28,277 nucleotides of DNA from a virus. Positions 18,300 through 28,277 of this stretch are shown here, piece after piece (the stretch's first letter is position 1; each line of letters starts with the position of its first letter). Where the stretch lies: IMG/VR virus record IMGVR_UViG_3300046513_000181, positions 1 through 28,277 of that record; one strand, given 5' to 3'. Below the pieces are notes generated by a model that was not told the origin of the DNA, made no database searches, and saw only the letters and a list, made by a program, of their open reading frames with translations. The translations under genes and the position numbers were made by a program.

Positions 18300-18328
18300 A
18301 ATATAACCCGAACACTAAAGGCGGTCAA
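18300..18328 (-). promoter_or_regulatory. Predicted late promoter (pR'-like)
   Basis: The minus strand carries TTGACC (18328-18323), a 17-bp spacer and TATATT (18305-18300). Each box differs from the sigma-70 consensus by one base. The -35 box overlaps the stop codon of the Q-like gene. Transcription would start near 18293 and head into the late operon. Confidence 0.75.
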
Positions 18329-18735
18329 GCAACTGTTTTCGCTTGTTCTCGCTGCTGCGCCAGGCGGTCCTGCGCGGCGATATCGATGTCTTGCAAGGCC
18401 TCCATCACCGCGGTATGAAGCGCATGCAGGCGGTTGTACACCGTGACCTCGCTGCATCGCAATTCCTGAGCGATGCGCTTCACCGTGAAGTTGCCAGCCA
18501 AGTAGAACCAGTAGGCGACATCGTACTGGGCCTGGTTCGTCTTCCGTATGGCGATGATGATGCCTTCAATTTCCAGCGCGGCGGCAGCCTCGGTGATGCG
18601 GCCGGAACCACCCTGGGTATGTATCTGCACCAGGTTGCAGTAACTCGATTGCGACGGGTAGCCAATTCCACCATCAGTGCGCCGCTTGCACCAGGTGGCC
18701 CATTCGATCATCCGCTTGTTGATGTATTCGATCAT
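18325..18735 (-). CDS. Q-like late antiterminator (putative)
   Basis: This 136-residue protein has an N-terminal part typical of phage Q-type antiterminators (MIEWATWCKRRTDGGIGYPS). A C-terminal helix-turn-helix like sigma-70 region 4 follows (FTVKRIAQELRCSEVTVYNRLHALH, about residues 83-107). Q proteins bind at the late promoter and let RNA polymerase ignore terminators. The context supports this: the gene lies last in the early operon, and a strong promoter followed by a terminator lies immediately downstream. A Shine-Dalgarno sequence (AAGGAA) precedes the ATG. An alternative is a simple HTH regulator of late genes. Confidence 0.7.
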   Translation of the reverse strand: MIEYINKRMIEWATWCKRRTDGGIGYPSQSSYCNLVQIHTQGGSGRITEAAAALEIEGIIIAIRKTNQAQYDVAYWFYLAGNFTVKRIAQELRCSEVTVYNRLHALHTAVMEALQDIDIAAQDRLAQQREQAKTVA

Positions 18736-18832
18736 GTCGTTCCTTTTCGTTTTGGAGATGGTGTTGTGGGCACTTTCCGCGCCTCGCCTTGTCTATAACG
18801 GATGACTTACTATCACGTGCAGGGCCTTTTAT

Positions 18833-19894
18833 TTACGGCATCGGTTTTGAGTCGCCCGCCGTTTTCTCTGCACGGAAACCGATTTGCTCCCCGATAGATT
18901 TTTGGGCCGCCGCCGCAAGGTCGAGATTCACTTCGAGGTAATTCAGCGTGGTCTGCAAGTGCTTGTGGCGCATGACGCGCTGGATGGTCTGGACCGGTAC
19001 CCCGCTCTCCGACAGCAGGGTGGCGAACGTCCCGCGCAGGCGGTGCGGCGTGATCCCGCTGATGCCACACGTTTCGTTGGCGCGCTGCATCGCCCACCGG
19101 GCGAAGCCAGAAACAAAAGGACGGCCATCGGGACGAACTGCGATCAACCCCTCGGCCTGGCGGAGTGGCTCAAGGTAGTCGATCAGCCAGCCCGGCACTG
19201 GCAGCGCATCCGCCTCCTTGCCCTTGGTCCGGCCGGGCGTGTATAGCTGGCGTGACCAGTCGAGCCATTCCCAGCGGGCGGAGATCGCCTCGCTCTCGCG
19301 CAAGCCCAGCCCGAACATGAGGCGCACAGCCGCGCCAGCCCGCGGCGTGCGTGACGAGAGCTTGTCTACCTCTTCCAGCCATTGCTTGGCGACCGCGACC
19401 GGTAGCAGCGCGCGCGGCACCTTCTGCACCTTGATGAGCGCGACGTTCCACGGCAAGGCTGGGATGATCTCGCGCCGGACCGCCCACCGCATCAATAGCT
19501 TCAGGATCCGCAACCACTGGTTCGCGCTGGCCGGCCTGTGGCTCTGCAGGTGCTGGTTGCGACCACTCTCCACGTCGGCGGTCGTGATCGCGTCAATCCG
19601 TTTGTCGCCCAGGTCGTACAGGTGAAGCCTGGCGAATCCATCGACCGTGCGAATATGGTGCGCGCTATAGATCGGCCGGTGCACCTCCAGCCACATCTTG
19701 ATGATCTCGCGTAGCGTTACCATTGGCTGGCCACCATTGTCGCGCGCCACCGCGGCGTCGTAGGCGCGCCGTGCCACGGCCTCGGCCCGGGTCTTCGACG
19801 CCTCGCGCGTCGTACGCTGCACACGCTTGCCATTCAGCTGGAAGCGGTAGTGCCAGACCTTGCAGCCCTTCGGTTTAAAAACGTCAACACTCAT
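18833..19894 (-). CDS. Tyrosine-type site-specific integrase
   Basis: This 353-residue recombinase has all three parts of a phage integrase. The N-terminal arm-type DNA-binding domain is at residues 1-55 (WHYRFQLNGKRVQRTTREAS), a core-binding domain at about 60-155, and a catalytic domain with Arg199, Lys224 or Lys226, His284, Arg287, His310 and Tyr319. The ATG at 19894 has an AGGAG-type ribosome site; the open frame before it lies in the end of the helicase gene. An arm-binding domain argues for true integration and excision rather than simple dimer resolution. Its place, between dnaB and the Q-like gene and 8.3 kb from the tRNA, is unusual. Confidence 0.92.
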   Translation of the reverse strand: MSVDVFKPKGCKVWHYRFQLNGKRVQRTTREASKTRAEAVARRAYDAAVARDNGGQPMVTLREIIKMWLEVHRPIYSAHHIRTVDGFARLHLYDLGDKRIDAITTADVESGRNQHLQSHRPASANQWLRILKLLMRWAVRREIIPALPWNVALIKVQKVPRALLPVAVAKQWLEEVDKLSSRTPRAGAAVRLMFGLGLRESEAISARWEWLDWSRQLYTPGRTKGKEADALPVPGWLIDYLEPLRQAEGLIAVRPDGRPFVSGFARWAMQRANETCGISGITPHRLRGTFATLLSESGVPVQTIQRVMRHKHLQTTLNYLEVNLDLAAAAQKSIGEQIGFRAEKTAGDSKPMP

Positions 19895-19920
19895 CGGAAT
19901 TCCCTCTCCTTTTGTCAACC

Positions 19921-21294
19921 TTAGAACTTGGACCGGCTTTGCTTCGCTTCGGTCTGCGTCGGCGGCGCGCCCGACCAAGCCGAAAAGCGGCATGTCGGGC
20001 CGTCGAACATGAGGTGCACGTCGCCGAGTGCGCCGCTGCGCTGCTTCCTGATCATCACCTCGGTGTAACCGCGCAGCTGCTCGACGCCCGGGCTGTGCAT
20101 TTCTGGCCGGTGCACGAACATGACGATGTCGGCGTCCTGCTCGATCTCGCCCGAGTCGCGCAGATCGGACAGCATGGGGCGCCGGTCTGCGCGGTCCTCT
20201 GACTTCCGATTTAGCTGCGCCAGCGCGATCACCGCGACGCCCAACTCCTTGGCCAGGGCCTTGAGGCCGCGTGAATACTGGCCAATTTGAGCAGATCGGT
20301 TATCGCCTTCAGCGCCGCTCATCAGGCCGATGTAATCCACCAGGATGACGTCCAGGCCATGCTTGCGCTTCCAAGCCTTCGCCTTCATGCGCAGTTCCAG
20401 CAGCGTGATGGCCGGCGTGCCATCGATTGAGAAGCGCACACTGTCCAAGCGTCCAATACCGGCGCTGATGCGGTTCCAGACTTCCTGCTCGTCGTCGCCG
20501 ATGCGCCCCATCACTTTGGTCAGCGCGACATTGCCGCGGCTGGCCAGCGCGCGCCCGGCGATCTCCTGCTGCTCCATCTCCATGCTGAACATCACGACGC
20601 TCTTCGTCTCGGCAATATTGAGCCCGACATCAGCGGCCAGCGCGGTTTTGCCCATGGATGGACGGCCGGCCATGATGATCAGCTGACCGGGTCTGAGGCC
20701 GCCATTGAACATTCGGTCCAGGTCTTCGATGCCGGTCGAAATGGCAGTCTCGTGTCCTTCCGCGCGCTTCGTCATCCCCTCGATGAATTCGAGCAGGATC
20801 TCGCGGATCATGCGCGGCTCGTTGCGCACGCGCCGCTCGGCCAGCGACGTGATCATCGACTGCATCGCGTCCAGCACCTCGTCGGCGCTCTTTCCCGCCG
20901 GGCGAAAGGCCAGACCACTGATCTGGTCGGACACCTGGATGATGGCGCGCAGCAGCGCACGGTCGACCACGGTTTTGGCGTAGGTGGCCACGTTGGCCGC
21001 GCTGGGCACGCTTTGCGCGATCTGGTTGAGGTACGGGCCCAGGCCGTCGATGGTCGCACCGCCACGGCTCTGCAGCGCGCCCCAAACGGTCATTGTGTCG
21101 GCCGGCTGGCCCTTCGATACCAGTTGCACGATCTCGCGGTAGATCGCACGGTGGTCCTCGCGATAGAAGTGCTTGGCCTGCAGGTCGCCGACTCGGTCGA
21201 AGGCGTCGTTGTAGCGCAGGATGGCGCCCAGCACGGCCTGCTCGGCTTCGATGCTGTGCGGTGGCGCTGCCAAGATGGTGGTGTCGTCGGTCAA
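19921..21294 (-). CDS. dnaB: Replicative DNA helicase, DnaB family
   Basis: This 457-residue protein is a complete DnaB-type helicase. Residues 10-115 form the N-terminal helical domain (PHSIEAEQAVLGAIL, HRAIYREI). The RecA-like motor has a Walker A motif at 210-217 (GRPSMGKT), a catalytic Glu in FSMEME (about 239) and a Walker B Asp320 (VILVDYIGLM). The C-terminal motif RDSGEIEQDADIVMFVHRPE is also typical. It unwinds the phage replication fork. The start overlaps the DUF1376 initiator gene by 4 bp (ATGA), so initiator and helicase are made together. Phage-encoded DnaB copies bypass the need to recruit the host helicase. Confidence 0.95.
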   Translation of the reverse strand: MTDDTTILAAPPHSIEAEQAVLGAILRYNDAFDRVGDLQAKHFYREDHRAIYREIVQLVSKGQPADTMTVWGALQSRGGATIDGLGPYLNQIAQSVPSAANVATYAKTVVDRALLRAIIQVSDQISGLAFRPAGKSADEVLDAMQSMITSLAERRVRNEPRMIREILLEFIEGMTKRAEGHETAISTGIEDLDRMFNGGLRPGQLIIMAGRPSMGKTALAADVGLNIAETKSVVMFSMEMEQQEIAGRALASRGNVALTKVMGRIGDDEQEVWNRISAGIGRLDSVRFSIDGTPAITLLELRMKAKAWKRKHGLDVILVDYIGLMSGAEGDNRSAQIGQYSRGLKALAKELGVAVIALAQLNRKSEDRADRRPMLSDLRDSGEIEQDADIVMFVHRPEMHSPGVEQLRGYTEVMIRKQRSGALGDVHLMFDGPTCRFSAWSGAPPTQTEAKQSRSKF

Positions 21295-22097
21295 GATGCT
21301 TCTCGGTGGTATTTGTTTTCGAGGATTTTTGCGAATGAGCTGGGCGCAAAAATGAAATCGATGTCGGCAATGAACGGGGGCTTACCAGGCGACGGTGGCG
21401 CGAGACCAGTCAGGAACGGCGAGTCAGCACAAATCGTGAAAAAGCGCCGCCAGGCATCAAGGCCATCAGCCATGGTCGTGTAGCCAAAAGGCTTGCACGT
21501 GAGCTTTGATGCCTCCAGCCAGCGCGCCTTGATCGCGGTCTTCCGCGTTGCGTTGACGACCTTGACCTGCGGATTCAGCGGCATCAGCTCGTGGTACAGG
21601 TTCACCAAGGTGTCAGTCGGGCACTGGCGAACGTCGTCGACAGACGACTGTGTAGTAGCTGGTTCTTGGTTAATGGTTCTTGGTTCTTGGTTAGTTGGAG
21701 TGCCGTTATTCGGCTGTTCAACGACCGTTGGAACGACCGTTGAAAGCCCGTTCAGCGCTTCTTGCTTTTTCAATGCTCTTTTGGCAGCAGAAGCCTTTCC
21801 AGCCAATGATTTTTGACTTGTCGAGTTTCGATAGCTCTCCAACTCCTCTTCGCACCGCTGGTGATACCAACCCGTTGGCGTTTTCGTGAAAAACTCGTTC
21901 AACACCTGTTCAACGGCCGTTACTTCGTCGTTGGAATGGGCAAGAATTTTCCGGCACAGCACGGCCTGATCAAGTGTCAGTTGCTGCTCCGTGTCGTAGT
22001 AGACATCGAGCAAATCGCGATAGATGCTGCGTTCGATGCGTGTGAGGTGCCTGGTGGCCCGATCGAAGTCACCGATGTGATGCGGGTAAAAGTTCAT
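21291..22097 (-). CDS. Phage replication initiator-like protein, DUF1376 (YdaU family)
   Basis: This 268-residue protein begins NFYPHHIGDFDRATRHLTRIERSIYRDLLDVYY, the DUF1376/YdaU signature, in a winged-helix-like N-terminal domain (residues 1-90). A low-complexity linker (about 120-155) follows with the repeated motif NQEPRTINQEP, then a C-terminal domain (about 160-260). Members lie directly upstream of dnaB or dnaC genes in many prophages and are thought to start replication, like lambda O. The linker DNA is made of short direct repeats that could be origin iterons. It overlaps the upstream gene and dnaB by 4 bp each. Confidence 0.85.
   Translation of the reverse strand: MNFYPHHIGDFDRATRHLTRIERSIYRDLLDVYYDTEQQLTLDQAVLCRKILAHSNDEVTAVEQVLNEFFTKTPTGWYHQRCEEELESYRNSTSQKSLAGKASAAKRALKKQEALNGLSTVVPTVVEQPNNGTPTNQEPRTINQEPATTQSSVDDVRQCPTDTLVNLYHELMPLNPQVKVVNATRKTAIKARWLEASKLTCKPFGYTTMADGLDAWRRFFTICADSPFLTGLAPPSPGKPPFIADIDFIFAPSSFAKILENKYHREAS
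21661..21921. repeat. Short direct repeats inside the initiator gene, candidate replication origin
   Basis: GGTTCTTGG occurs at 21661-21669, 21675-21683 and 21682-21690. AACGACCGTTG occurs twice with 12-bp spacing (21720-21730, 21732-21742), and a related palindrome, AACGGCCGTT, is at 21912-21921. Lambda-type origins are iterons inside the initiator gene, so this is a candidate origin. Confidence 0.4.
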
Positions 22098-22378
22098 TCG
22101 TCCGCGCTTTCAGCGCCCTCAGCCAACTCGATGCGCTGCGCGTGCGCCAACGCATCGGCCAATCCTGGATGTGTACCATCTAGACCTCGAGCCAATCGGT
22201 CAGCCTGCAGGGCCTTCTCGCGCGCCACTTGGAGGTCATTCAGCCGCTTCACCTCCGCGCCGGCACCGGCGGCCGTGAGTGCGACACCGGCCACGGTGCG
22301 TATGCTGCAGCCAGGCGTCAGGTAGGTGATCAGATACTCGCCGGCCTCGTTCGGGCCGGTGCATTCGTGCTTTAGCAT
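22094..22378 (-). CDS. Small early phage protein, hypothetical
   Basis: This 94-residue protein begins MLKHECTGPNEAGEYLITYLTPG. A C-terminal helix rich in Ala and Arg follows (EVKRLNDLQVAREKALQADR). The ATG at 22378 is chosen for its clear AGGAG ribosome site at 6 nt spacing. The gene overlaps both the upstream gene (7 bp) and the DUF1376 gene (4 bp). I know no function; its position suggests a replication accessory or unrelated early role. Confidence 0.65.
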   Translation of the reverse strand: MLKHECTGPNEAGEYLITYLTPGCSIRTVAGVALTAAGAGAEVKRLNDLQVAREKALQADRLARGLDGTHPGLADALAHAQRIELAEGAESADE

Positions 22379-22647
22379 GCACTGCTCCTGTGGGTGATGA
22401 TTTCGCGGATGTTTGGGGCGCTGACGCCGCAGCCGCTCAAAGCCCCGCACTCAGGTGGTGGCGGCGCCACCCATGGATCACCATTCATAGCCGCCTCAAA
22501 CGCCGCCAGATGGGTGAACGAGTAGTGCCAGTGCGCGGCGGCGAGTGATCCATCTGGATACGGGCACGCGTCCGTCGAAAGGCGTGCGCGGTACGCCGCG
22601 CGCGCGGCATCGCGGATGGCATCAATGGAGAATATTTGCTCTGACAT
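22372..22647 (-). CDS. Small early phage protein, hypothetical
   Basis: This 91-residue protein has a helical N-terminal half (SIDAIRDAARAAYRARLSTD) and a WHYSFTHLAAFEAAMNG helix, then a proline-rich turn and a cysteine-containing tail. A strong ribosome site (AAGGAG) precedes the ATG at 22647. It opens the replication gene cluster and overlaps the next gene by 7 bp. No named family is recognised. Confidence 0.65.
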   Translation of the reverse strand: MSEQIFSIDAIRDAARAAYRARLSTDACPYPDGSLAAAHWHYSFTHLAAFEAAMNGDPWVAPPPPECGALSGCGVSAPNIREIITHRSSAC

Positions 22648-22688
22648 GCTGCTCCTTCCAACCTTCCATCCAGCCGTCTTGTAGGGTC

Positions 22689-22743
22689 GGGGCGTGACCG
22701 GCGGGCTGGAATCGCCAAGTCGCGGCTGCGCAGCCGCCGCCCC
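22689..22743 (-). ncRNA. Candidate structured leader RNA upstream of the replication cluster
   Basis: On the minus strand GGGGCG (22743-22738) can pair with CGCCCC (22694-22689). They enclose a 16-base palindrome (GCGGCTGCGCAGCCGC, 22737-22722) that forms a strong hairpin. The element is 42 bp upstream of the first replication-cluster gene. No open frame with family resemblance covers it. Function and conservation cannot be shown from one sequence. Confidence 0.35.
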
Positions 22744-22851
22744 GTTTGTGATCGTTACCGGCGCCCAGCCGGGTTTTGCTTATTGGGCGGGGACTCCGAG
22801 CCATGTTAAATTGTCAATTCCACTCAACAATTTCTGAAAGGAAGCCCCCTC

Positions 22852-23031
22852 ATGAACAAAAGTGATGCACGCGACACCGCGCGAAATCTTCTCGAAATAC
22901 TCATCAAAAACCAACCGAACCTCTTAGTTGACAAGGGCAGCGTTCAAAACGCCTATGGCAAAGAAATTGCAAACTTCTGCCACGACTTTATTGAGCAATT
23001 TGCTGAGCGCTTAGAGCAGCGGTCAGACTAG
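22852..23031 (+). CDS. 59-residue gene on the opposite strand, hypothetical
   Basis: This small frame encodes MNKSDARDTARNLLEILIKN, then QNAYGKEIANFCHDFIEQFAERLEQRSD, a helical acidic protein with ordinary codon use. A ribosome site (AAAGGAAG) lies upstream of the ATG. A weak promoter (TTGGGC, 17 bp, TTAAAT ending near 22812) could serve it. It is one of few plus-strand genes here and is antisense to the early operon. Its 3' end overlaps the end of the minus-strand 68-residue gene by 44 bp. I recognise no family; expression from the opposite strand suggests a lysogeny-phase role. Confidence 0.55.
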   Translation: MNKSDARDTARNLLEILIKNQPNLLVDKGSVQNAYGKEIANFCHDFIEQFAERLEQRSD

Positions 23032-23194
23032 CCGGCGCCGATCCCACAACGTTTTCCAGCGTTGCGCCGGCCTCAATCAAAGTCTTGGGATTGAGGCCGG
23101 CCACAGCCATCTCGCAGAGCGCATCGACCACTTTATCGGCGCGAGCGCTCCCCGCGCCAGCCGGTTGCTCGGCCGCGTCTTTAAGTGGTTTCAT
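22988..23194 (-). CDS. Small hypothetical protein downstream of AlpA gene
   Basis: This 68-residue Ala-rich protein contains ADKVVDALCEMAVAGLNPKT, then LIEAGATLENVVGSAPASLTAAL, mostly helical. A good ribosome site (AAGGA, about 7 nt spacing) precedes the ATG. It follows the AlpA-like gene by 10 bp and is likely cotranscribed with it. The last 44 bp overlap a plus-strand gene tail to tail. The function is unknown. Confidence 0.6.
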   Translation of the reverse strand: MKPLKDAAEQPAGAGSARADKVVDALCEMAVAGLNPKTLIEAGATLENVVGSAPASLTAALSAQQIAQ

Positions 23195-23204
23195 GGGGGA
23201 GTCC

Positions 23205-23447
23205 TTACGCTGCGGTCTGGCGGGCAGTCATGAGGCGACTTACGAGCGATCGGATTTGATCTTCGCTTTGCCCAGCGATGCGAGCATTGATGATCTCGTC
23301 AATTTCGTCAGCTGGCCAACCAACCGCACGCGGGCCGAGATTAACTGGCTTGGTCAGCAAACCTTGGGAGATGTGGAGATAGATTGTTGAGTCTGCCAAT
23401 CCGAAGACTTCCTTCATTGCTGGCATGCGGTGAACGGGTCTTGACAT
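23205..23447 (-). CDS. AlpA-family transcriptional regulator
   Basis: This 80-residue protein matches the AlpA/MerR-like winged-helix family: RMPAMKEVFGLADSTIYLHISQGLLTKPVNLGPRAVGWPADEIDEIINARI carries the typical recognition helix and wing. AlpA proteins activate excision genes or regulate prophage operons, and some act as recombination directionality factors. Here it lies downstream of an inverted-repeat operator region (23520-23575) that may control it. Target genes are not evident; the integrase is 3.3 kb away in the same direction. Confidence 0.85.
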   Translation of the reverse strand: MSRPVHRMPAMKEVFGLADSTIYLHISQGLLTKPVNLGPRAVGWPADEIDEIINARIAGQSEDQIRSLVSRLMTARQTAA

Positions 23448-23519
23448 GATTACATCCGATTAGTGACCAACTAAGGCCGATGGATGCATCTTCCGCTACA
23501 TTTTTCTACAATAAAAGAG

Positions 23520-23575
23520 CGTCAACTTAGCATGATGCTTTTACTGCTAAGCACATAGTTGCTTGTGCTTAGCAG
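23520..23575. promoter_or_regulatory. Inverted-repeat operator region upstream of the AlpA gene
   Basis: A perfect 12-bp inverted repeat (CTGCTAAGCACA at 23544-23555, TGTGCTTAGCAG at 23564-23575) has an 8-base gap. A third half-site (CTTAGC, 23526-23531) adjoins a minus-strand TTGACG (23525-23520) that could be a -35 box; no good -10 box is seen. The large repeat could instead end the gene to its right, but no T tract follows it closely. Confidence 0.45.
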
Positions 23576-23578
23576 ACA

Positions 23579-24421
23579 CTACTTTTTCAGCGATTTATTG
23601 TAGGCGCGAATCCACTGCAGCGGCTTGTTAGTCCCGGGCTTAAGCTGGGGACCGTGCTTCTTTGAGAATTCGACAATCTGTGGCTTGATCTCTTCCGCCG
23701 CCGCCGGCACGCCGTCATTCCAGGTTCCGGCTTTGTATAAACGAATGGTCTCCTTCCTTAAGACGTCGAATTTTGCGGCTTTGGCCGCGCCACCGGAAGC
23801 TGCCACCTTCTTCGCATTGGCTCTCCTGTCATTTTTCAAGGCAAAGAAAGACTCAAGGCGCATATTGCCCTGGGTGGCGATAAATTTCGCAGACATCGCG
23901 TCAGCAAGAAGATCGAGCACTCTTTTCGGGTCAGTATCAATGAAAAGAGATGCCTGCATAATTCGGTCTACCGATAATGCTTCTAAGATATCGCCAGTGC
24001 CAGGGAAATTGCGAAACGAAGTGCCGGCCAGCAGTTCTTTTGTACACGCATTAATATAGTGTCGTGCCAACAATCCCCCGCACGTCACTTCTTGAGTATC
24101 CCCGACGCGCTCATCGAACACCGATTGTCCGGCCGACGCGTGTTGAAGCGAAGCCTCGTAGACCGACGTGTATTTATCAGACCGAGCGGCCAAGAGGATT
24201 AGATCATCAATCTGATCCCTGAATCGGTCCCTCAGTGCTCCATAGGCGTGACGGAAATGGATCTCCCATTTCTTCCCAAGTCCGGAAAGACCATCACCGG
24301 CGACATCAACAAACTCAGTTTTCATCTCCAACATGGCTTTTAATGCAGCCGCGTGTGCAATTTTTTTTGTTTCTTCGCTGTGTTCACGATACTGAGCGAC
24401 GGGAACCGTTCTCCACCTCAT
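23579..24421 (-). CDS. Unrecognised 280-residue accessory (cargo) protein
   Basis: The protein is soluble-looking, without a signal peptide or membrane helix. Residues 1-110 are helical and charged (RHAYGALRDRFRDQIDDLILLAAR), and the middle contains YINACTKELLAGTSFRNFPGTG. The C-terminal 70 residues (RKETIRLYKAGTWNDGVPAAAEEIKPQIVEF...LQWIRAYNKSL) resemble a helical tail seen on varied phage-encoded proteins. Its DNA is clearly less GC-rich than its neighbours. It has its own very strong ribosome site (TAGGAGGT). It interrupts the small early genes, as cargo (moron) genes do. A role in host defence or superinfection exclusion is possible, but nothing in the sequence proves it. Confidence 0.8.
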   Translation of the reverse strand: MRWRTVPVAQYREHSEETKKIAHAAALKAMLEMKTEFVDVAGDGLSGLGKKWEIHFRHAYGALRDRFRDQIDDLILLAARSDKYTSVYEASLQHASAGQSVFDERVGDTQEVTCGGLLARHYINACTKELLAGTSFRNFPGTGDILEALSVDRIMQASLFIDTDPKRVLDLLADAMSAKFIATQGNMRLESFFALKNDRRANAKKVAASGGAAKAAKFDVLRKETIRLYKAGTWNDGVPAAAEEIKPQIVEFSKKHGPQLKPGTNKPLQWIRAYNKSLKK

Positions 24422-24645
24422 ACCACCTCCTATTTTTCATCCTTGACATATTAGGCGACGCTCCATCTGATTTTCTCGGTGCCGCGTACAAATTTCTATT
24501 TTGCACTATTCGCCTAACTGGCGGTCATTTGAAATTGATGCAATACCGCGCGCGCCGACGACATCGGGCGCGCTCGGCTTGGATATCGCCGGGGCGGCGT
24601 TCTAGTGAGGCGTGCCGCCCACGTTGAACATCTCTGCGGCGGCGT
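24422..24645. other. Low-GC gap upstream of the accessory gene
   Basis: No convincing gene is seen. TTAGGCGA at 24450-24457 and its inverse TCGCCTAA near 24504 form a widely spaced inverted repeat that could bind a regulator of the accessory gene. The base composition rises to that of the prophage near 24540. A 15-codon frame at 24602-24649 may be the truncated start of a gene lost when the low-GC segment arrived. Confidence 0.35.
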
Positions 24646-24860
24646 TCACGATGCGCCGCCCGGAGCCTGATAGGTGCGCCAGTGCGTCACCGCCCCCTGA
24701 TCGAACGGAGCGCCGTCGCGCATCGAGTTCCAGCAGTCCTCGTCGGCATACGGTCCTTGCTGTTCCAAACAATCACCGGAACCTCAGTTTGAGGGACTGC
24801 CACCTCTACTGGTGCCCACCCGGCGCGGTCGGCCGCTGCCGTGCATGTCCGGGTGCTCAT
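24646..24860 (-). pseudogene. DUF551-like gene broken by a frameshift
   Basis: The ATG at 24860 overlaps the stop of the previous gene (ATGA) and has an excellent ribosome site (GGGAGGT). The first frame reads GWAPVEVAVPQTEVPVIVWNS. The sequence then makes sense only in another frame: YADEDCWNSMRDGAPFDQGAVTHWRTYQAP. Together these match the DUF551 pattern (W-x-P-V ... VTHW). The switch falls at about 24748-24752, and the 215-bp span is one base short of 72 codons, so a single deleted base explains it. Without the missing base the product stops at 24687 after 57 residues. A sequencing error is possible. Confidence 0.65.
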
Positions 24861-25084
24861 GATGCACCTCCCGAAATCACGCGAAAGGCCCTGGGCTTTG
24901 GCGCCCGTGATTGAATGAGCGCCGCTACGTCTTCAGCGTGACCCAAGATGTACTCCTGACTCGCACGGTCCAAGCGGTTGAAATAACTAAGCAGGCGCTG
25001 CTGGTCGGCGGTGAGTGGTGCGGCAGGTGCCGCCTGGATGGCGGCCGAGCCGGCAACGGGCGTGATGGTGGTCGAGGTACTCAC
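24857..25084 (-). CDS. Small early phage protein, hypothetical
   Basis: This 75-residue protein has an unstructured Ala/Thr/Pro N-terminus, then a helical part (ADQQRLLSYFNRLDRASQEYILGHAEDVAALIQSR). It starts with GTG at 25084, overlapping the stop of the previous gene (GTGA). It belongs to a tightly packed early operon of overlapping genes (25969 to 24646). The function is unknown. Confidence 0.65.
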   Translation of the reverse strand: MSTSTTITPVAGSAAIQAAPAAPLTADQQRLLSYFNRLDRASQEYILGHAEDVAALIQSRAPKPRAFRVISGGAS

Positions 25085-25329
25085 GCTGCACTCCCGACAA
25101 AACCAGCCTTCACAGCGCGCTCGCGCAAACAGTCGGCGTCGTTGCTGATTTCAAAAGCCACGCGGGCGCCGTGCTGGCACAAGGTCTTGATGTCCCTGCC
25201 CTCGCTCAGGAGGTCAATGGCGCGGAACAGTGCGGCAAGCGCGTCCGCTTGGTCCATGGCGCTGGTGGTCACGGATTCAACATCCAAGACGGTGACCTGC
25301 TCACAACCGTTGATGATAAGGGCGCTCAT
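25081..25329 (-). CDS. Small early phage protein, hypothetical
   Basis: This 82-residue protein begins MSALIINGCEQVTVLDVESV. A helical segment follows (AMDQADALAALFRAIDLLSEG), then LCQHGARVAFEISNDADCLRE. The ATG at 25329 has a clear AAGGAG ribosome site and overlaps the previous stop by 4 bp; the longer open frame upstream is antigenic noise within that gene and lacks such a site. No family is recognised. Confidence 0.65.
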   Translation of the reverse strand: MSALIINGCEQVTVLDVESVTTSAMDQADALAALFRAIDLLSEGRDIKTLCQHGARVAFEISNDADCLRERAVKAGFVGSAA

Positions 25330-25610
25330 GCTACATCTCCTTGTTGTGCTGTGCTGACTTCGTAGTCCGTCAGGATGGTCGCAATTTCCTCGATGTCTTT
25401 GATGTAGCGGCGTGCGGCCCGGAGTAGCGACGCGGCGCGGTTGTCGATGGGTTGAATGCGATCGCATTCTTCCATACGCACGAGATCGTTCAGGATGCTG
25501 GTGGCGAGGTTGATGTCGTCGGCCGCATCCCCCATCGAGCTAAGAACCGAGTCAAGGTCGACCTGGGTAATTTCGGCTGGCGATGCCGGCGTGGTGGCGC
25601 GGCGGCTCAT
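25326..25610 (-). CDS. Small early phage protein, hypothetical
   Basis: This 94-residue, acidic and helical protein contains DLDSVLSSMGDAADDINLAT, then AASLLRAARRYIKDIEEIATIL. It overlaps both neighbours by 4 bp (ATGA), so its translation is coupled to them. No catalytic motif or membrane segment is visible, and I do not recognise a family. Confidence 0.65.
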   Translation of the reverse strand: MSRRATTPASPAEITQVDLDSVLSSMGDAADDINLATSILNDLVRMEECDRIQPIDNRAASLLRAARRYIKDIEEIATILTDYEVSTAQQGDVA

Positions 25611-25969
25611 ACACCTTCCCGTTGCGCAGCGTCGGCGACCACCACAGGGATCATGGCGCCCAGCTCGTCTGCCATCGACGACGCGAGCCAGAGCAAGCCG
25701 ACCCGCGCGCCCATGGCCAAGCTATCGAACGATGCGAACTCATCCGCCCCGATCAGTTTCAACAAGCTGCTCAGCTGGCTGGCGCGCATCATGGTGTGGT
25801 CCTGCGCATAGTGGCGGTTGATGTTGAGCTGACCGTAATCCACCTTCACGCTGCCGATGAACTTCAGGTCAGGCGCTGGCAGCGCCGGTTGATCCGCGCC
25901 GACTGCGCCGACTGCGCCTAGCGTTTCCTTGCCTTGCAGTATCTCTGTGCTATTCTTAAACTTCGACAT
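25607..25969 (-). CDS. Small early phage protein, hypothetical
   Basis: This 120-residue protein contains LKFIGSVKVDYGQLNINRHY, then ASQLSSLLKLIGADEFASFDSLAMGARVGLLWLASSMADEL. It opens a four-gene overlapping set and has a good AGGAG ribosome site. A candidate antisense RNA on the plus strand would cover its start codon and ribosome site. The function is unknown. Confidence 0.7.
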   Translation of the reverse strand: MSKFKNSTEILQGKETLGAVGAVGADQPALPAPDLKFIGSVKVDYGQLNINRHYAQDHTMMRASQLSSLLKLIGADEFASFDSLAMGARVGLLWLASSMADELGAMIPVVVADAAQREGV

Positions 25970-26035
25970 GATGTACTCCTAAGAAAATTTAGGTCGTGAG
26001 GGGCCATCCGGTGCTGTAACACCGGGTGGCTTTTT
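25929..26035 (+). ncRNA. Candidate antisense small RNA with promoter and terminator
   Basis: The plus strand has TTGCCT (25929-25934), a 16-bp spacer that ends in TGC, and TATTCT (25951-25956), an extended -10 promoter. A transcript from about 25963 would end at a strong intrinsic terminator: an 11-bp stem (26003-26013 with 26020-26030, one G-U pair), 6-base loop and five T residues. The RNA of about 75 nt would be antisense to the start codon and ribosome site of the gene at 25969. No plus-strand gene precedes the terminator, so a short RNA is the simplest reason for it. Confidence 0.4.
26003..26035 (+). terminator. Strong plus-strand intrinsic terminator
   Basis: The stem GCCATCCGGTG/CACCGGGTGGC with a 6-base loop is followed by TTTTT on the plus strand. 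The minus-strand reading has no T tract, so it ends plus-strand transcription although neighbouring genes are on the minus strand. Confidence 0.8.
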
Positions 26036-26168
26036 CCATTTTTGAAGGCGGTATCGCGCTAGCCGGCGGCGGGCGGGCCGTGCAGGTTCGACTGCAACGC
26101 GTGCTTGATCGGGCTGGTGTTGTGACTGGCGCTCATCTCAATCCCCGTTTGGTTTATGTTTCCGCTAA

Positions 26169-26510
26169 TTACTTAAAATTAGTATTGTGTAAACTATTCC
26201 TAGTCGGCATTGATGTCAACTTATCGGCCGCCTGTTCGGCGATCACGTTCGCGAGCTGCGTGTGCTGCGTGGCGCTGGCCGCCTCTATGACGGCGCGGCG
26301 CTCATTCGCGCGCACCATGCCTTCACCGGACACTCCAGCCGCATCCAGTTGGGCGTGTACTTTGGCTTTCTGTTCGGCCGTCAGGGCGTTGAGCATGACC
26401 TTGATGATCGTGTCGGCGCGCTGCAGCTCGGACAGCAGCGATGCGATGGTGTTGATTGGGGATGAAGTACGGTGCGCGCTGGCGCTAGATGCGGGGGTGC
26501 TATTGACCAT
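26169..26510 (-). CDS. First early gene after the C4 RNA, hypothetical
   Basis: This 113-residue protein begins MVNSTPASSASAHRTSSPIN. A helical body follows: TIASLLSELQRADTIIKVMLNALTAEQKAKVHAQLDAAGVSGEGMVRANERRAVIEAA. The ATG at 26510 has an ideal ribosome site (AGGAGG, 6 nt spacing); the open frame upstream lies within the C4 RNA and is not a gene. Short proteins like this are frequent behind early leaders in related prophages, with no known function. Its expression may be controlled by the C4 RNA and attenuator upstream. Confidence 0.7.
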   Translation of the reverse strand: MVNSTPASSASAHRTSSPINTIASLLSELQRADTIIKVMLNALTAEQKAKVHAQLDAAGVSGEGMVRANERRAVIEAASATQHTQLANVIAEQAADKLTSMPTRNSLHNTNFK

Positions 26511-26519
26511 GATGGCCTC

Positions 26520-26635
26520 CTGTGCGGTGGTGAACCGCCCGCCCCGTCGCCAAACGGGGAGAGCAGCAAATGGCGGGGTTGGCGAACCGGTGCACAAGGA
26601 AACCGGCATACCCGAAGGTATCCCCACCACTGCCG
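26520..26635 (-). ncRNA. C4-type antisense RNA (phage immunity/antirepressor control RNA)
   Basis: On the minus strand the sequence reads GGTATGCCGGTTTCCTTGTG, then CACCGGTTCGCCAACC and later GGGCGGTTCACC, the conserved string of C4 antisense RNAs known from phages P1 and P7 and found widely in prophages. Supporting pairs are: a stem with a UUCG tetraloop (26608-26612/26617-26621), CCGG/CCGG (26587-26590/26603-26606), GGTT/AACC (26577-26580/26585-26588) and CCCCG/CGGGG (26542-26546/26555-26559). In P1, C4 is cut from the same transcript it controls and blocks expression of the downstream antirepressor region. Recognition is from memory of the motif, without a covariance search. Exact ends are uncertain. 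Confidence 0.75.
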
Positions 26636-26665
26636 CTCATAGAAGACGCGATGGTGCAACGGACG

Positions 26666-26696
26666 TAAAAATACCGCCTAGTGGCGGTTGACCGCC
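26666..26696 (-). promoter_or_regulatory. Attenuator-like leader with two competing hairpins
   Basis: Minus-strand segments GGCGGT (26696-26691), ACCGCC (26688-26683) and GGCGGT (26678-26673) allow two exclusive hairpins. The second pairing, followed by ATTTTT, is an intrinsic terminator; the first would prevent it. It lies about 45 nt after the predicted early start site and also ends transcripts of the DUF4224 gene to the right. Confidence 0.6.
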
Positions 26697-26723
26697 TTGA
26701 GCTTCCCGAGTCGCCAAACCCGT

Positions 26724-26747
26724 GCTCCTTTTTCTCGGAGCCTTTTT
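26724..26747. other. 5' leader hairpin / plus-strand terminator-like element
   Basis: GCTCC (26724-26728) and GGAGC (26737-26741) pair around an 8-base loop. On the minus strand it forms a hairpin with an A-rich loop at the 5' end of the predicted early transcript, loosely like a boxB element. On the plus strand the same stem is followed by CTTTTT and could be a terminator. Confidence 0.45.
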
Positions 26748-26777
26748 AGAATAGGTCTGCCGTGGGTATGTTGTCAA
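26748..26777 (-). promoter_or_regulatory. Predicted early leftward promoter
   Basis: The minus strand has a perfect -35 box TTGACA (26777-26772), an 18-bp spacer and TATTCT (26753-26748). Transcription would start near 26741 and proceed through the attenuator, the C4 RNA and the early genes. The -35 box overlaps the stop codon of the DUF4224 gene. Confidence 0.7.
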
Positions 26778-27052
26778 GAATTTTTGTCGCGAGCCCTACC
26801 CTTCGCCGCGCGTGGTGGAAGTCGCGAAGAGGACTCCGCGACGGCAGCATCCCAATTTGGCACGAACTCCGGCTCAGCTTTCTTCAATGCTGCGCGCCCG
26901 CCCAGCTGCTCAATCACGTGCGACCGTAGCACCAGCAGCGTACCGTCAGGCCTGATCTTGTGCGTAATCCCCATGGCGTTCAACACCTTCGCTTGGGATC
27001 GATACTGTTGTTTTCCGGTCATTTCCCGCAACTCGTCTCGTGTCAAAAACAT
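26774..27052 (-). CDS. DUF4224 domain protein
   Basis: This 92-residue protein starts MFLTRDELREMTGKQQYRSQ, then AKVLNAMGITHKIRPDGTLLVLRSHV, the DUF4224 pattern (a small DNA-binding-like domain that often accompanies phage integrase genes). The basic C-terminal 40 residues are variable. The ATG at 27052 is preferred to an in-frame TTG 14 codons upstream. It is transcribed divergently from the Xis fusion gene, with 35 bp between the two ATGs. A candidate promoter is TTGCCA, 18 bp, AATAAT (27094-27065). It may regulate that divergent region; this is inference. Confidence 0.75.
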   Translation of the reverse strand: MFLTRDELREMTGKQQYRSQAKVLNAMGITHKIRPDGTLLVLRSHVIEQLGGRAALKKAEPEFVPNWDAAVAESSSRLPPRAAKGRARDKNS

Positions 27053-27087
27053 ATACTCTTTCGAATTATTTGTGGAAGACAGATGGG

Positions 27088-27546
27088 ATGGCAATTATTC
27101 TAAACCGAGAAGAATTGCACCGACGGCTATGGACGCAGACCATGGGAACGCTCGCCTACAAGCTCGGCCTTACCCAGGCAAAGTTGTCCGAAGCGTGCCG
27201 CTTGCTCGCTATCCCGGTGCCGCCGCGCGGTTACTGGAACGCAATCCGGGCCGGAAAATCGATTCCACCGATACCGTTGCCTGAGTATGACGGACCGCGA
27301 GAGCTTCGGATCGAATCGGCACGGGAACGAGCCTCAAAGGAACTGGGCGCTCTTGCTCCAGCCAAGCGCGCCCAGGTAGCGCCGCGATATGTCACCCTGG
27401 ACGAGTGGGCGCAGGCGACGTTCTCCCACCCGCCTCATAAAAACACACTTTTCAGATGGGTCAACGAAGGGCGCATTCAGCCGCAGCCGCGCAAGATCGG
27501 CAGGCGCTGGTGGGTCGAGCCCACCGCTGAATACCGCGCCGACTGA
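27088..27546 (+). CDS. Excisionase-like protein fused to a PPRGYW N-terminal domain
   Basis: This 152-residue protein has two parts. Residues about 5-60 (REELHRRLWTQTMGTLAYKLGL, then CRLLAIPVPPRGYWNAIRAGK) match a helix-turn-helix-like domain found at the start of several uncharacterised bacterial proteins. Residues about 100-150 (YVTLDEWAQATFSHPPHKNTLFRWVNEGRIQPQPRKIGRRWWVEP) match the lambda-type excisionase family, including the winged-helix wing. Xis proteins bend attachment-site DNA and drive excision. It begins the rightward operon that ends beside the tRNA. A good -10 box (TATACT, 27052-27057) lacks a clear -35 box, which suggests an activated promoter. Confidence 0.8.
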   Translation: MAIILNREELHRRLWTQTMGTLAYKLGLTQAKLSEACRLLAIPVPPRGYWNAIRAGKSIPPIPLPEYDGPRELRIESARERASKELGALAPAKRAQVAPRYVTLDEWAQATFSHPPHKNTLFRWVNEGRIQPQPRKIGRRWWVEPTAEYRAD

Positions 27547-27562
27547 GACGAAGGAGGACCAA

Positions 27563-27799
27563 ATGGAGCACCCTGTTTCGTGGGTCAAATTGGAGAAGTA
27601 TGTCGAACTCACCGGCGACAGCATTGACGCGGTGCAGGCCAGGCGAAAGGCTGGAAAGTGGCTGAATGGGAACCAGTGCAAAATCGTGGATGGGCGGTTG
27701 TGGATCGACCTGCGAGCGGCACAGCGCTGGGTAGAGGAATGGGATCCGAGTTCGCCGATGCTCGCCGCCGGCGGGACACGCGCAAAGGCGAAAAAGTGA
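27563..27799 (+). CDS. Second excisionase-like protein
   Basis: This 78-residue protein reads WVKLEKYVELTGDSIDAVQARRKAGKWLNGNQCKIVDGRLWIDLRAAQRWVE, the pattern of the small Xis family found beside integrase genes. A very good ribosome site (AAGGAGG) precedes the ATG. It follows the Xis fusion gene by 16 bp and overlaps the DUF4224 gene by 4 bp. Two different Xis-like proteins in one operon is unusual. One may serve excision and the other regulation. Confidence 0.8.
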   Translation: MEHPVSWVKLEKYVELTGDSIDAVQARRKAGKWLNGNQCKIVDGRLWIDLRAAQRWVEEWDPSSPMLAAGGTRAKAKK

Positions 27800-27999
27800 G
27801 CGACACCTTCTTGACCCACGAAGAGATTGCTACCTTGACTGGGTGGAAAAACAAGCGCAAGCAGGTTGAGCAACTGCGCAAGCAAGGGTTGCCTTTTTGG
27901 CTCAACGCAAGCAACGCGCCGATAGTGCCGAGGTCGGCTATTGACGGCCGCAAGGCTCAAGCTGCTCCGCCAAAAAAACGATGGGAACCACCTGATTGA
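27796..27999 (+). CDS. DUF4224 domain protein next to the attachment region
   Basis: This 67-residue protein reads TFLTHEEIATLTGWKNKRKQVEQLRKQGLPFWLNASNAPIVPRSAI, a clear DUF4224 pattern. It starts with GTG at 27796, overlapping the stop of the Xis-like gene (GTGA). In many prophages such genes overlap the start of an integrase gene. Here an ATG in the expected place (27980, out of frame) gives only four codons, and no integrase follows before the tRNA. Confidence 0.8.
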   Translation: MSDTFLTHEEIATLTGWKNKRKQVEQLRKQGLPFWLNASNAPIVPRSAIDGRKAQAAPPKKRWEPPD

Positions 28000-28134
28000 T
28001 CGAGTAGCGCTACCGGCGGCAATAGCGCTCGCGCCTAAGCATGGCAGAATGAGAAGTCTAGCAAAGGCCGGTAAGCACCAATGCGGTGCGGTGATTTTTT
28101 CTTACCAAATTTCTTACCGAGTTTCGCGGACAAG
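28000..28134. other. Probable attachment-side region with short repeats, no gene
   Basis: There is no gene in this stretch. TTTCTTACC occurs twice with 12-bp spacing (28098-28106, 28110-28118), and GGTAAG, an inverted partial copy, is at 28070-28075. Such repeats next to a tRNA 3' end could be arm-type integrase sites. The attachment core cannot be set without the other prophage end. Confidence 0.4.
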
Positions 28135-28160
28135 AAAAAGGCCAGCTCACCGGCTGGCCT
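28135..28160 (-). terminator. Terminator of the tRNA-Pro gene
   Basis: The minus strand reads AGGCCAGC, a 6-base loop, GCTGGCCT and five T residues, 17 bp after the tRNA 3' end. It is a standard intrinsic terminator in tRNA sense. Confidence 0.85.
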
Positions 28161-28176
28161 AAGTCATTGATTTGTC

Positions 28177-28253
28177 TGGTCGGGGCGAGAAGATTCGAAC
28201 TTCCGACCCCTTGCACCCCATGCAAGTACGCTACCAGGCTGCGCTACGCCCCG
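28177..28253 (-). tRNA. tRNA-Pro (anticodon GGG)
   Basis: A complete 77-nt tRNA on the minus strand. The acceptor pairs CGGGGCG with CGCCCCG, then discriminator A and encoded CCA (28179-28177). The anticodon stem CTTGC/GCAAG holds loop ATGGGGT, anticodon GGG at 28219-28217. The T loop contains GTTCGAATC. C1-G72 and A73 fit proline tRNAs. Its 3' end faces the prophage, so it is the likely integration target. Confidence 0.97.
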
Positions 28254-28265
28254 ACAGACGCACGC

Positions 28266-28271
28266 ATTATA
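28266..28271 (-). promoter_or_regulatory. -10 box of the tRNA-Pro promoter
   Basis: A perfect TATAAT on the minus strand lies 12 bp upstream of the tRNA 5' end. The -35 box would lie beyond the window. Confidence 0.75.
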
Positions 28272-28277
28272 GCAGCA

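Follow-up and report, generated by a model that had tools for sequence, protein, structure and literature searches.

C4 antisense RNA was defined in the phages P1 and P7, with two close specificities. It reportedly forms part of the immI operon, c4-icd-ant, in an account attributed to Citron and Schuster (1990). The mature P1 C4 is an RNase P product of roughly 77 nt, and in both P1 and Gifsy-1 C4 silences an antirepressor alongside a protein repressor. In P1, C4 is processed by RNase P, its b' segment covers the ribosome site, and its a' segment sets specificity (PMC5320573). The Gifsy-1 system involves read-through of isrK and the gene anrP, and isrK is a structural homolog of P4 seqA (PMC4825925). 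Chromosomal C4-like sRNAs have also been described in Acinetobacter baumannii, where action on other host transcripts was proposed (PMC5320573).

We analysed a stretch of viral DNA of 28,277 bases (the window), which is a whole IMG/VR record, classified as linear and perhaps fragmentary. With a probability of roughly 0.8, a P1-type C4 antisense module fronts the early operon of this phage and keeps that operon silent. C4, with matching target sites on either side of it, very probably holds the phage early genes in check, and might by itself keep the phage dormant.

The C4 RNA and its module

A preliminary description of the window had placed a C4-type RNA near 26520-26635 and pointed to the Rfam covariance model as a check. 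The match to that model (RF01695) confirms the RNA and sets its exact site at 26644-26555 on the minus strand, with full-length coverage (model positions 1-87) and a score of 71 bits, above the gathering threshold of 45 bits (E = 3.4e-12). The 90-nt RNA is predicted to fold at -42.2 kcal/mol (z = -4.4), and none of 200 shuffled sequences did as well. In this fold, the a' core TTCGCCAA is flanked by the inner hairpins on one side and the closing stem on the other, and b' lies in the loop of hairpin 2. The RNA is a genuine C4, part of the known family of P1 C4, isrK-C4 and P4-like RNAs and no new kind. Two of the three strings earlier quoted as conserved C4 sequence lie inside it; the third, GGGCGGTTCACC, lies outside at about 26540-26529 (minus strand), in the part of the leader that separates a2 from the start of ORF1, and was rejected as a part of C4. 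A near-identity search of positions 18800-28277 against annotated phages returned no match.

Around C4 we found a P1-type module on the minus strand, comprising in order a sigma-70 promoter, the target site a1 and a candidate b1, an intrinsic terminator, C4, the target sites a2/b2, and ORF1; this order and the base pairing among the parts can be read from the DNA itself. The preliminary description had recognized C4 and overlooked the upstream half (26777-26667), which contains the promoter, a1/b1, the isrK-like leader and the terminator. A consensus scan identified the promoter (TTGACA-18-TATTCT, 26748-26777), which is predicted to drive the C4 operon. It is followed by a putative leader RNA (26667-26741) containing a1, b1 and the terminator. 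The isrK model (RF01394) scores 33.7 bits for 26741-26667, under its gathering threshold of 50 (E = 1.8e-5 for the sub-region), and the c4-a1b1 model (RF03163) scores 16.8 bits for 26754-26703, under its threshold of 46.7. Judged by these scores, the leader resembles isrK (and P4 seqA) without qualifying as a member of the isrK family.

The motif TTTGGCGAC, complementary to the a' core, occurs both as a1 (26710-26718) and as a2 (26546-26554). The candidate b1 site, GCTCAAGG (26695-26702), pairs with the b' loop at 7 of 8 positions, and with this one mismatch its pairing is weaker than in most homologs. The b2 site, GCACAGG (26519-26525), overlaps the ORF1 Shine-Dalgarno sequence AGGAGG and pairs with the b' loop over seven consecutive positions, including one G-U pair. 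Between a1 and C4 lies the intrinsic terminator, a hairpin with a T-run (ACCGCC-acta-GGCGGT-ATTTTT, 26668-26688). We discarded duplex energies calculated between whole C4 and whole leaders, since each of the strands is self-complementary.

The proposal that C4 stands at the head of the early, replication operon was borne out, and the operon carries the cognate target sites as well. ORF1 (26169-26510, minus strand, ATG at 26510), the first gene, encodes a protein of 113 aa, predicted to be helical, with no Pfam domain and a weak PHROG match (11952, function not assigned). Its predicted structure is all-helical, with three helices, at low confidence (mean pLDDT 69, pTM 0.30), too weak for a fold search. 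The remaining co-directional block (18325-25969, minus strand), annotated with Pfam and PHROGs, runs from small ORFs through genes for AlpA (23447-23205), a replication initiator (22097-21291), DnaB (21294-19921), an integrase (19993-18833) and, at its end, a Q-like antiterminator (18735-18325). No further consensus sigma-70 promoter was found on the minus strand from 26748 to 18328.

Several other features of this region were observed. The gap between ORF1 and ORF2 contains a strong conserved hairpin (25998-26035, z = -3.35), also present in the relatives G001 and G002, which on the plus strand looks like an intrinsic terminator facing against the operon. The same gap holds a short conserved reading frame of about 25 aa (minus strand, 26142-26060) that is also seen by eye in L002 and L003. 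Several small early ORFs (minus strand, 24857-25969) are mutually alike by eye, being helical with a repeated pattern, and resemble first ORFs found beneath other C4s. Four excisionase-like genes (DUF4224 twice, Exc and a PHROG excisionase; 26774-27999) adjoin tRNA-Pro, and the integrase lies 7 kb from them, beyond DnaB.

Covariation of C4 cores with their targets

C4 loci were gathered from 294 genomes of one family, five C4-rich genomes among them, and from viral records and phages. After duplicate removal, the analysed set comprised 163 loci with an alignable 8-nt core, representing 31 distinct a' cores. A C4 paired with its own upstream target at 7 or more of 8 positions in 86.5% of the 163 loci, compared with 7.6% for C4s with other cores; the corresponding values for the downstream target were 75.5% and 1.6%. 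For 25 of the 31 cores, one or more members keep both targets. In a comparison of 47 distinct a1/core/a2 triples, five positions of the core covary with both partners and the eighth is unpaired; the seven-base core is highly variable. Both a1 and a2 track the a' core through compensatory change. The b' loop likewise covaries with b1 and b2 (0/10,000 permutations). None of 10,000 permutations matched the observed pairing sum for the 163 C4s, a test that ignores relatedness; the many distinct compensating cores are a stronger argument than this permutation, which takes no account of kinship.

The remaining parts of the module recur as well. Of the loci with good targets, 117 in all, 61.5% have a promoter-like site (against 5% of shuffled sequences) and 83% have a terminator between a1 and C4 (against 3.7%). 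In the homologs with a promoter-like site, the distance from the -10 element to a1 has a median of 31 nt (interquartile range, 31-31), close to the 30 nt of the window and equal to the 31 nt of P1.

Three genomes (G065, G106 and G283; L122-L171, L186-L196) contain 23 to 26 C4 copies each, scattered over the chromosome. Genes near the checked copies are of host type, encoding MarC, enoyl-CoA hydratase, gamma-glutamyltranspeptidase and a luciferase-like monooxygenase. Every copy carries a'/b' segments of its own and, for the most part, cis targets to match; the copy's own target ranked top for 10/26, 15/23 and 21/23 copies, respectively. Since these copies have their own cis targets, we argue that they are self-contained units rather than regulators of host transcripts as proposed for A. 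baumannii (PMC5320573). Pairs of C4s within one locus, about 300 to 1,200 nt apart and with differing a' cores, were also observed (L132, L060, L122, L133, L136 (G065); L078 (G087)). We considered diversifying selection among C4s of the same genome, in which core and loop are shared by 0 of 831 pairs. Sharing between genomes is also just 2 of 1,725, and we therefore do not claim such selection. Relatives carry dozens of a' cores, each with matched upstream and downstream targets, so that the specificity of a C4 is readable from its sequence and the cores could be tested as a set of orthogonal RNA switches.

Proposed repression of the early operon and possible RNA-based immunity

We modelled processing, repression, termination and immunity on P1, P4 and Gifsy-1. 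RNA polymerase would start at the 26777-26748 promoter and proceed leftward through a1/b1, the terminator, C4, a2/b2 and ORF1. C4 would be excised from this operon transcript and would pair, via a' and b', with the two-part target of newly made transcripts. At a2/b2, C4 would mask the ribosome site and repress translation of ORF1; at a1/b1, next to the terminator, it would probably promote early termination. Untranslated read-through RNA would end before the replication, integrase and Q-like genes, and the early operon would be silenced in the lysogen as well as in an infecting phage that shares the a'/b' specificity.

Relatives of the window phage bear on this model. G001 (41 kb) carries the same C4 module, with 75-91% identity to the window over aligned stretches. 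In the window the promoter, a1, a2, b2, the terminator and the C4 stem are all intact, and G001 and further relatives conserve them. G005 has only the C4 module in common with the window (26515-26749), which suggests that the module moves as a unit. G002 has both the capsid-terminase genes (6.1 kb at 90%) and the ORF1-ORF2 block in common with the window but has no C4; its homology to the window begins at 26526, the ORF1 Shine-Dalgarno sequence. In place of the C4 module, two Arc-like repressor genes, one of them divergent, lie upstream of the ORF1 block. This natural swap favors a regulatory role for C4. The replication-side genes of G002 run opposite to the ORF1 block, and the swap is therefore no clean one-for-one replacement of replication control.

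Does C4 act alone? The preliminary description had noted the absence of a CI/Cro pair between the tRNA and the replication genes, and had proposed that immunity may be RNA-based. The absence holds in Pfam, PHROG and HTH_3/S24/Arc searches of the region from tRNA-Pro (28253-28177) to the replication genes, in which only excisionase-like (Exc, DUF4224 twice), AlpA and Q-like genes were seen. HTH_3, Peptidase_S24 and Arc domains were likewise absent from the 28-kb record, which is incomplete, and no lambda-type HTH repressor (with S24) was found near its early operon. The proposal of RNA-based immunity without a CI-like repressor is only partly supported by these searches, which cover a fragment. 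In G001, the HTH_3, S24 and Arc searches gave one candidate, an XRE-metallopeptidase gene at the far end. This gene (L179:2215-3402, XRE plus M78 metallopeptidase) lies near the lysis end, and possibly represents cargo, an antitoxin-like gene or a regulator.

We give even odds to an arrangement like that of P1 and Gifsy-1, in which the target of C4 silencing is an antirepressor or an accessory protein, encoded by ORF1 or a neighbor, and lysogeny is maintained by a protein repressor encoded beyond the incomplete record or of an unrecognized type. In some other loci, the first ORF under C4 encodes a KilA-N, Bro-N or Rha/ORF6C protein, domains familiar from antirepressors, and another first-ORF family (90 aa) shares homology (51%) with an Arc-like repressor over the C-terminal half of that repressor. 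Phage SfV and Pseudomonas phage CF145a carry a CI-type repressor (HTH plus S24) near C4, and the XRE-M78 gene of G001 could fill this role. However, that lone candidate is near the lysis end, the window has no HTH_3, S24 or Arc gene, and Pfam and PHROG searches found no antirepressor domain in ORF1 or the scanned early ORFs. The replication genes, moreover, are co-directional with ORF1 in one block, in which the scan found no second consensus promoter. Alternatively, C4 might be the sole immunity determinant, as is the CI RNA in satellite P4, and a lambda-like siphophage would then have a lysogeny switch made of RNA only. We consider this reading less likely than not: the searches that found no repressor gene, the position of C4 upstream of the replication genes, the resemblance of the leader to isrK, itself a homolog of seqA (PMC4825925), and the Arc-like repressors that fill the C4 position in G002 speak for it, but in a fragmentary record a missing domain match does not equal a missing repressor.

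A domesticated or decayed C4 with no role in this phage might account for the imperfect b1 pairing and the sub-gathering isrK score; the intact, conserved module makes it very improbable. It is doubtful, although conceivable, that this lambda-like siphophage lineage relies on C4-only lysogeny, with Arc-like repressors in the same slot of its siblings and RNA and protein immunity as exchangeable modules. No other case of RNA-only immunity in tailed phages turned up among the papers searched. If the C4 module alone silences the phage, ordinary tailed phages would join satellite P4 in having RNA-only immunity, and the sibling with Arc-like genes in the C4 position would demonstrate that RNA and protein immunity are interchangeable.

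Comparison with known systems

The closest counterpart is P1, whose annotated record serves as an independent control and lists promoter, a1, b1, C4, a2, b2 and icd in the same order as the window, where b1 is a candidate site. Both have a C4 model match, a terminator between a1 and C4, and a b2 site over the ribosome site. The a1 and a2 sites of P1 have one and the same sequence, TTGACAG, which is reverse-complementary to the P1 C4 a' segment, whereas the corresponding core in the window is TTGGCGA. The mature P1 C4 has the 5' end GG, compared with GA in the window. Unlike in P1, the first ORF of the window is not recognisably icd or ant, replication genes rather than ant lie downstream of it, and no C1-like repressor was found in the record.

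The isrK-C4 loci of Gifsy-1 (STnc1160) and SfV, like the window, have an isrK-like leader and an intrinsic terminator directly 5' of C4 (PMC4825925). The Gifsy-1 locus differs in controlling orf45-anrP, an antirepressor region, beside a repressor, and the isrK score of the window is sub-gathering. Satellite P4 (CI RNA, seqA, seqC) likewise places an antisense RNA, with one target upstream and one downstream, at the start of a replication operon; this likeness is one of arrangement and gene order, and termination in the window phage would follow P4 by analogy. The A. baumannii sRNAs share the C4 fold and the variable a' and b' segments (PMC5320573). They are multi-copy and chromosomal, whereas the window has one C4, in a prophage, that is accompanied by cis targets of its own.
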